Positions 14,663-16,386 of a stretch of 34,672 nucleotides of DNA are shown here, one piece after another. Position 1 is the stretch's first letter. Every line of letters begins with the position of its first letter. Made by a program: the position numbers and the translations under genes. This stretch comes from an uncultured Atopobiaceae bacterium (lineage in GTDB: Bacteria > Actinomycetota > Coriobacteriia > Coriobacteriales > Atopobiaceae): positions 1 to 34,672 of the forward strand of contig CANQSI010000003.1 of assembly GCA_947626465.1 (NCBI GenBank), given 5' to 3'. Below the pieces are notes generated by a model. That model was not told the origin of the DNA. It worked only from the letters and a program-made list of their open reading frames with translations, and did no database searches.

Positions 14663-16318
14663 CTAGCGCCCGTTCGGCGCCACCACCTCGTGGCGCTCCT
14701 TGCCCTCGTGGCGCGCGATCGCCGCGCGCACGAACTCGCGGAAGAGCGGCTGGGGCTTCGTAGGGCGGCTCTTGAACTCCGGATGGAACTGGCTCGCCAC
14801 GAACCACGGGTGCTCGCTCTCGGGCAGCTCGACCATCTCCACGAGGCGATCGTCAGGCGAAAGGCCGGAGAAGACGAGCCCCGCCTCGGAAAGCCGTTCG
14901 CGGAAGGCGTTGTTCACCTCATAGCGATGGCGATGGCGCTCGTAGACGAGGTCGGTGCCGTAGGCCTCGCTCGCGAGCGTGCCCGGCTGTACCTTGCAGG
15001 GCCACGCACCGAGGCGCATCGTGCCGCCCTTGTCGGTGATGTCCTCTTGGTCGGGCATGAGGTCGATCACGGGGTAGGCGCAGTCGGGCACGAACTCCGT
15101 GGAGGACGCACCCTCCATGCCGCCCGCGTGGCGTGCGACCTCGCACACCGCCACCTGCAGCCCGAGGCAGATGCCCAAGAACGGCACCTTCTGCTCGCGG
15201 GCGCGCTCGACGGCGAGGATCTTGCCCTCGAGGCCGCGTATGCCGAAGCCGCCGGGCACGAGGATGCCGTCTGAGGCACCGAGCACCTCCTCCACGTCGT
15301 CTGGCGTGAGGTTTTCGCCATCGACGAGCTCGATCTCCACGTGGCGCCCGTAGTAGACGCCCGAGTGGTGGAGCGCCTCGATCACGCTGAGGTACGCGTC
15401 GGGAAGCTGCGTGTACTTGCCCACCACGGAGATGCGCGTCACGTCTGAGAGCGAGTTCGCGGCGTGCATGGCGTCGGTGAAGGCGTCCCACTCCGAGAGG
15501 TCGAGCTCGCCGGGATCGAGGCCGAGGCACTCGCACACCTTGAGGTCGAAGCCCTGCTCGGCGAGGTAGCGCGGCACGTCGTAGATGCTCGGGAGGTCGC
15601 AGTTCTCAAACACGCGATCGGCCGGCACGTCGCAGAACATGCCGATCTTCGCGCGAATCGATTCGTCCACCTCGTGGTCGGAGCGGCAGACGATGATGTC
15701 GGGTTGGATGCCCATGCCGCGGAGCTCCTTCACGGAGTGCTGCGTGGGCTTCGTCTTCACCTCGTGCGCCGCACTCATGTAGGGCACGAGCGACACGTGG
15801 ATGAAGCACACGTCGCCGCGGGCCTTCTCGTTGCGAAACTGCCGCATGGCCTCCACGAAGGGTTGCCCCTCGATGTCGCCGATCGTCCCGCCGAGCTCGG
15901 TGATCACGATATCGGCGCCGGTGTGCTCCTCGATGCGCAGGAAGCGATCGCGGATGGCGCCCGTCACATGCGGCACCACCTGCACGGTGCCGCCGAGGAA
16001 ATCTCCCTGGCGCTCGCGCGAGATGAGCGATTGGTAGATGAGGCCGGTGGTGAAGTTCGAGGCGCGCGTGAGGTTCTCGTCGACGAAGCGCTCGTAGTGG
16101 CCGAGGTCGAGGTCGGTTTCCTTGCCGTCCTCCGTGACGAACACCTCGCCATGCTGGAACGGGCTCATCGTGCCGGGATCCACGTTGAGGTAGGGGTCGG
16201 CCTTCTGCATCATCACCTTATAGCCGCGACTCTTGAGCAGCCTGCCCAAGCTCGCTGCGGTGATGCCCTTGCCGAGGGAGGAAACGACGCCGCCGGTTAC
16301 GAACACGTGCTTCGTCAT
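14663..16318 (-). CDS. pyrG: CTP synthase
   Basis: MTKHVFVTGGVVSSLGKGITAASLGRLLKSRGYKV, GTIGDIEGQPF, GGFGIRG, FLGICLGLQ, SQFHPEFKSRP. Confidence 0.97.
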   Translation of the reverse strand: MTKHVFVTGGVVSSLGKGITAASLGRLLKSRGYKVMMQKADPYLNVDPGTMSPFQHGEVFVTEDGKETDLDLGHYERFVDENLTRASNFTTGLIYQSLISRERQGDFLGGTVQVVPHVTGAIRDRFLRIEEHTGADIVITELGGTIGDIEGQPFVEAMRQFRNEKARGDVCFIHVSLVPYMSAAHEVKTKPTQHSVKELRGMGIQPDIIVCRSDHEVDESIRAKIGMFCDVPADRVFENCDLPSIYDVPRYLAEQGFDLKVCECLGLDPGELDLSEWDAFTDAMHAANSLSDVTRISVVGKYTQLPDAYLSVIEALHHSGVYYGRHVEIELVDGENLTPDDVEEVLGASDGILVPGGFGIRGLEGKILAVERAREQKVPFLGICLGLQVAVCEVARHAGGMEGASSTEFVPDCAYPVIDLMPDQEDITDKGGTMRLGAWPCKVQPGTLASEAYGTDLVYERHRHRYEVNNAFRERLSEAGLVFSGLSPDDRLVEMVELPESEHPWFVASQFHPEFKSRPTKPQPLFREFVRAAIARHEGKERHEVVAPNGR

Positions 16319-16364
16319 ACCCGTGCCTTTCGAAAAGAAGACGTACATGGCCTTTTGCACGGGT
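16319..16364 (-). promoter_or_regulatory. Putative pyrG leader hairpin abutting the start codon
   Basis: Minus strand ACCCGTGC (16364-16357) and GCACGGGT (16326-16319), perfect 8-bp inverted repeat; second arm lies between SD AAAGG and ATG. Confidence 0.6.
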
Positions 16365-16368
16365 CTAC

Positions 16369-16386
16369 AGTCTACCAAGCGCTTGG
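16369..16386 (-). promoter_or_regulatory. Candidate pyrG -10 (TAGACT) adjoining a 12-bp perfect palindrome CCAAGCGCTTGG
   Basis: agtcta at 16369-16374; ccaagcgcttgg at 16375-16386; no good -35 seen. Confidence 0.4.

Follow-up and report, generated by a model that had tools for sequence, protein, structure and literature searches.

Nucleotide-dependent choice of the transcription start, coupled to a hairpin that acts on translation, has been described for the enteric genes pyrC and pyrD. When the GTP/CTP ratio is low, their transcripts begin with C instead, and the hairpin that then forms keeps the ribosome off (PMC7818426), while start choice itself is centred about 7 bp after the -10 element and depends on the initiating NTPs (PMC5730371). 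Control of the pyrG gene of Gram-positive bacteria has been described differently, as reiterative transcription with attenuation: slippage on a run of G residues is known in Bacillus subtilis and has been inferred for Streptococcus agalactiae (PMC4448216). Here we report that the pyrG leader of an uncultured Atopobiaceae bacterium is best explained, with good confidence, as a CTP-sensing start-site switch, the mechanism put forward in an initial annotation of this DNA. We take this model as the best one because the phase and hairpin of these leaders match those of Escherichia coli pyrC and pyrD, and because of the folding predictions given below. Switching of this type is known already; what appears to be new is the gene on which it acts, the lineage in which it occurs and the direct feedback on CTP synthase. 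No earlier report of this pyrG element was found in the literature searched, whose partial coverage makes this weak evidence of novelty.

The window, by which we mean the whole stretch of 34,672 nucleotides analyzed, comes from a draft genome of an uncultured bacterium in the family Atopobiaceae (Coriobacteriales, Actinomycetota) and carries recN and then pyrG on its minus strand. The pyrG open reading frame (14663..16318, minus strand) matches TIGR00337 (766 bits, E 2.8e-231), which confirms its product as CTP synthase, and the closest named PyrG, at 97% identity, is that of "uncultured Atopobiaceae bacterium Lapin-001 bin20". An upstream in-frame ATG (MYVFF...) was rejected as the start codon: it is absent in congeners, and both the TIGR00337 match and the Shine-Dalgarno (SD) sequence favor the ATG at 16318 (16316..16318).

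Read on the minus strand, the leader consists of TAGACT-GTAGA-CCCG-TGC, a 30-nt loop and GCACGGGT-ATG, and all the elements named in the initial annotation lie where it had placed them. The -10 hexamer TAGACT (16369..16374; TANNNT in related leaders) is followed by the spacer GTAGA (16364..16368), conserved in its length of 5 nt and variable in sequence, and then by the presumed alternative starts (16360..16363), namely C6, C7 and C8 (16363-16361), where RNAs would be started with CTP, and G9 (16360), where they would be started with GTP. Arm 1 of the putative hairpin, ACCCGTGC (16357..16364), and arm 2, GCACGGGT (16319..16326), form the perfect 8-bp inverted repeat that had been claimed, with arm 2 between the SD and the start codon and adjoining the latter. 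The loop (16356-16327) has the 30 nt originally counted; it is unconserved in sequence and length and contains most of the SD, AAAGG (16326..16330), in place of which five congeners have GGAGG or GGGAGG.

This layout closely parallels the enteric leaders. E. coli and Salmonella pyrD read CATAAT-ACGCC-CCCGG, which puts C6, C7, C8 and G9 at an equal distance from the -10 element, and pyrC reads TATCCT-TTGTG-TCCGG, with T6, C7, C8 and G9 after an identical five-nt spacer. In E. coli pyrD (arms CCCGGT/ACCGGG) the second arm precedes the SD by a few nt, an arrangement shared with the pyrG leaders of Coriobacteriaceae. In pyrC the second arm (GCCGGAG) coincides with the ribosome-binding site, which is also where most Atopobiaceae pyrG leaders have theirs. 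Gene and lineage differ: pyrD encodes a dihydroorotate dehydrogenase in Gammaproteobacteria and has arms unrelated to ours beyond CCCG, and pyrC encodes a dihydroorotase, again in another phylum. The pyrG genes of B. subtilis and Streptococcus share the gene and the presumed signal, CTP, but have a G-run start, added G residues and a terminator (PMC4448216), whereas the Coriobacteriales leaders have a C run and a fixed G9, lack a terminator and would act by blocking the SD/start region. The initial annotation had likewise set this locus apart from the GGGC mechanism of Bacillus, and at the presumed start the leaders do have CCCG or TCCG instead of GGGC. No intrinsic terminator was found between the start and pyrG in the conserved leader, in which the SD and ATG come next after arm 2. 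Rfam searches gave no match at gathering score in the window, and sub-threshold matches only for the leader and five relatives.

In the switch that we propose, RNA polymerase with the main sigma factor would melt the promoter at TAnnnT and, where CTP is plentiful, begin the RNA at C6, C7 or C8; where CTP is scarce relative to GTP, it would begin at G9. RNAs begun at C6 or C7 would include the whole of arm 1, which would pair with arm 2 and hide the ribosome-binding site, or the spacer beside the start codon, so that little CTP synthase is made. Those begun at G9 would lack three C-G pairs, leaving a weak hairpin that lets translation proceed and yields more PyrG. We infer the start sites, their CTP dependence and the effect on translation; no mapped transcription start in these bacteria was found in the literature searched. 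If the model is true, CTP, the product of CTP synthase, governs its own production through the nucleotide with which the mRNA begins.

Taken by itself, the window leader offers modest evidence that is suggestive only, because 7-bp repeats of this kind recur in each genome, no more often than in a reversed control: CCCGTGC-N12-40-GCRCGGG is common in these GC-rich genomes, with 5 forward matches against 6 in the reversed control in the genome G000. Dinucleotide shuffling of the leader yields a perfect 8-bp repeat adjoining the ATG in 0.06% of cases, and random 70-nt stretches taken from the window contain one so placed in 0.24%; for a repeat anywhere in the 70 nt, the figures are 2.4% and 5.4%, respectively. 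The whole leader folds no better than its shuffles (z -0.56). The strength of the case comes from comparison, and it is the comparison across relatives, described below, that makes the evidence for the putative element strong.

To begin with the phase, 140 Atopobiaceae genomes from 35 genera were searched and 95 pyrG leaders were read. TAN3T followed after exactly 5 nt by YYCG is present in 90 of the 95, and nearly all have a second arm that is complementary to the start and lies beside or overlaps the SD. The alignment of relatives proposed in the initial annotation as a check on its model supports it, with covarying arms and CCCG at a constant distance from the -10 element in those 90 of 95 leaders. 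In a logo of the 85 unique family leaders, anchored on TANNNT-N5-YYCG so that its invariant letters are partly a matter of construction, C6 is present in 81, C7 in 84, and C8 and G9 in all 85; CCC occurs in 81/85 where the anchor permitted C or T, and the free positions show A as the fifth base of the hexamer and a T at position 10 in 85/85. Anchoring on the stem instead, in both families, recovers TAN3T at a spacing of 5 in 87/112 leaders, and at most 5 leaders at any other spacing. Loop length (7 to 50 nt) and the distance from arm to ATG vary freely among the Atopobiaceae leaders. Upstream of the hexamer the family logo holds little information except a CG four to five nt before it and has no -35 consensus, so that the lack of a convincing -35 first noticed in the window extends to the whole family. 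In one leader (L093), TATCAAATCTCGTAAAAG about 30 nt upstream of the pyrG promoter resembles a degenerate duplicate of that promoter with its arm 1.

The two arms change together. In an alignment of 43 leaders from genera other than the window's (A2), 89.4% of cells pair, against 37-52% (maximum 52.2%) when the partner is slid, and double changes number 20, where shuffles give 9.0 +/- 2.2. Stem position 12 appears as G-C, A-U, C-G and U-A and position 11 as A-U, G-C and G-U. Changes reach into the C run itself: at position 6 the pair is U-A instead of C-G in L046 and L049, and L045, by eye, has a U7-A pair. RNAalifold, given the alignment alone, returned the identical 7-bp stem. Directly 3' of arm 1, at positions 13-16 after the -10 element, lies an A/G-rich stretch, typically GAA or GAAA, which is conserved in the other Atopobiaceae genera and in Coriobacteriaceae, unlike the rest of the loop; its counterpart in the window is AAAA at 16353-16356.

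How the second arm meets the ribosome-binding site differs among lineages. In most Atopobiaceae, arm 2 supplies its GGG to the SD (GGGAGG), and in Coriobacteriaceae it stops a few nt short of the SD, about 21 nt ahead of the ATG. The window's genus has the arms CCCGTGC/GC(A/G)CGGG with arm 2 between the SD and the ATG, at a gap of 0-1 nt from the latter versus a median of 8 nt in other genera. In each of the 6 genomes of the genus, CGCTTGGTA(G/C)ACTGTA(G/A)ACCCGTGC is retained together with GGC(A/G)CGGG at the ATG, around loops that differ. Because both the arm sequences and the placement of arm 2 differ, the genus carries what is, on sequence grounds, a rebuilt version of the putative element.

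The element is specific to pyrG. A covariance model of the family's leaders (R1) matches 111/140 Atopobiaceae genomes, the strong match in each lying just before pyrG; matches elsewhere in the 140 genomes are weak (E 0.003-0.07). R1 missed the window's own genus (G000-G005), where the arms differ (CCCGTGC/GCACGGG) and the leaders were read directly. It also matches 46/67 Coriobacteriaceae, and all the leaders fetched from these, including those of Collinsella, lie at pyrG. Among Eggerthellaceae it matches few genomes, L212 and L213 at pyrG and the other four fetched elsewhere. One R1 match, L214, lies between two convergent genes and was set aside as chance. No match was found outside Coriobacteriales in a sample of 397 genomes from the phylum, a search that a similar switch with other arms would escape since R1 is tuned to one arm sequence.

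In a tree of PyrG proteins, Coriobacteriaceae and Atopobiaceae form one group, 76/80 members of which have the start motif. Five Atopobiaceae leaders lack the motif (L018, L025, L026, L034 and L039), and by eye they lack the arms as well. The first four belong together in a small clade whose sister is the window's genus (L039 was left out of the tree). The same clade includes L037, where TTCCG remains and has no partner arm, so this looks like loss of the element in progress. The PyrG of Curtanaerobium respiraculi (L146 / L212; Eggerthellaceae) falls inside Atopobiaceae and its gene has an Atopobiaceae-type leader, which suggests horizontal transfer of pyrG together with its leader. Two Eggerthellaceae leaders (L161, L168) and that of a basal lineage of Coriobacteriales (L156) also have TAN3T-N5-CCCG with a matching arm, which would be either left over from an ancestral element or gained independently.

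Folding predictions agree with the proposed switch on average, and unevenly from leader to leader. The predicted probability of the hairpin in the window leader falls from 1.0 for a transcript begun at C6 and 0.99 at C7 to 0.67 at C8 and 0.09 at G9, although other predicted structure remains over the SD-ATG region of the G9 transcript. Over 83 leaders, the mean predicted helix probability is 0.94, 0.81, 0.53 and 0.36 from C6, C7, C8 and G9, and the drop from C7 to G9 exceeds 0.3 in only 47/83. The predicted cost of opening the SD-ATG region, computed from energies that leave out the ribosome and co-transcriptional folding, falls by a mean of 1.5 kcal/mol from C7 to G9, against -0.01 with arm 1 shuffled; E. 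coli pyrC (2.5 kcal/mol) and pyrD (2.9 kcal/mol) give falls too, that of pyrC being of the same kind as in the Atopobiaceae leaders. Within the window's genus, the predicted switch is clear in the window and in L004 and partial in L005. It is absent in L003 and L006, where the hairpin has a probability of 0.97-0.98 even from G9, and in L002, where the hairpin never forms. It is in this uneven predicted switching within the window's genus that the thermodynamic argument is weakest. Three traits of a pyrC/pyrD-type switch are found together here: pyrimidines followed by a G across positions 6-9 downstream of the -10 element, a start segment that pairs with a segment at the ribosome-binding site in a covarying 7-bp stem and, in prediction and with the exceptions of L002, L003 and L006, a hairpin weakened by a G start.

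Several other explanations were weighed against this model. The run of three Cs at the start of nearly all leaders would also suit reiterative transcription, in which high CTP would cause slippage on CCC, the addition of C and thereby unproductive or more structured RNAs; G-run slippage at B. subtilis pyrG, and its inferred counterpart in S. agalactiae (PMC4448216), offer a precedent. We consider this unlikely, as leaders with a broken run (TCCG in L046, L049 and L073; CTCG in L045) retain the phase and the hairpin, the breaks in L046 and L049 are compensated in arm 2, and slippage needs neither a conserved G9 nor an SD-blocking arm. A promoter-proximal hairpin that answers to another signal (an RNA-binding protein, temperature or Mg) and represses translation or stabilizes the RNA, with no choice of start, would fit a stem that covariation supports well and gains from the conserved A/G-rich GAA(A) just after arm 1. 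It seems improbable to us, however: it leaves unexplained why the stem starts exactly 6 nt after the -10 element, as YYC and then G, and why the C run is near-invariant while the inner pairs covary, and no conserved binding site lies elsewhere in the loop.

Transcription attenuation, with the hairpin as a terminator, is brought to mind by the terminators in several pyrG leaders of the sister family Eggerthellaceae and by one terminator-like pattern in the window leader, which was rejected for its weak stem and for ending inside the unconserved loop. It is very improbable, given that what comes after arm 2 in those leaders of Atopobiaceae and Coriobacteriaceae that were read is the SD and ATG and no T run. 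A chance repeat in a GC-rich leader, to which the recurrence of 7-bp repeats several times per genome, no more than in the reversed control, would point, hardly deserves credence for an element conserved before a single gene across two families, with covarying arms and a constant phase, and it is refuted by the covariation and the specificity of R1. CTP-sensing start-site switching before pyrG, as first proposed from the window, is thus the reading that the comparison supports, through its phase, covariation, specificity to pyrG and likeness to E. coli pyrC and pyrD.

More broadly, we think it likely that the two gut Actinomycetota families have in common an independently evolved CTP switch on their CTP synthase gene, and that a sister family has a terminator-based leader. 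The logic of the enteric switch, with identical phase, on Coriobacteriales pyrG would show that feedback free of a regulator arose more than once. Such a switch would be recognizable by sequence, as TANNNT-N5-YYCG with a covarying arm, and more than 100 natural variants would be available for the question of how RNA polymerase picks its start from the NTP pool.

Eggerthellaceae and relatives include a set with a different pyrG leader (L157, L163, L165, L176, L248, L250, L256, L259, L265, L267, L268 and L272). Their presumed start has, 4-6 nt after a -10-like TANNAT (not evident in L176), an (A/G)CG(T)TTG-like segment. The stem of a terminator further downstream appears to use this 5' segment, for example AAAAGCGTTTGAAAG...CTTCAAGCGCTTTTTT in L250. 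This leader may be a CTP switch that works by transcription attenuation, in which the start of the RNA would serve as the first arm of the terminator.
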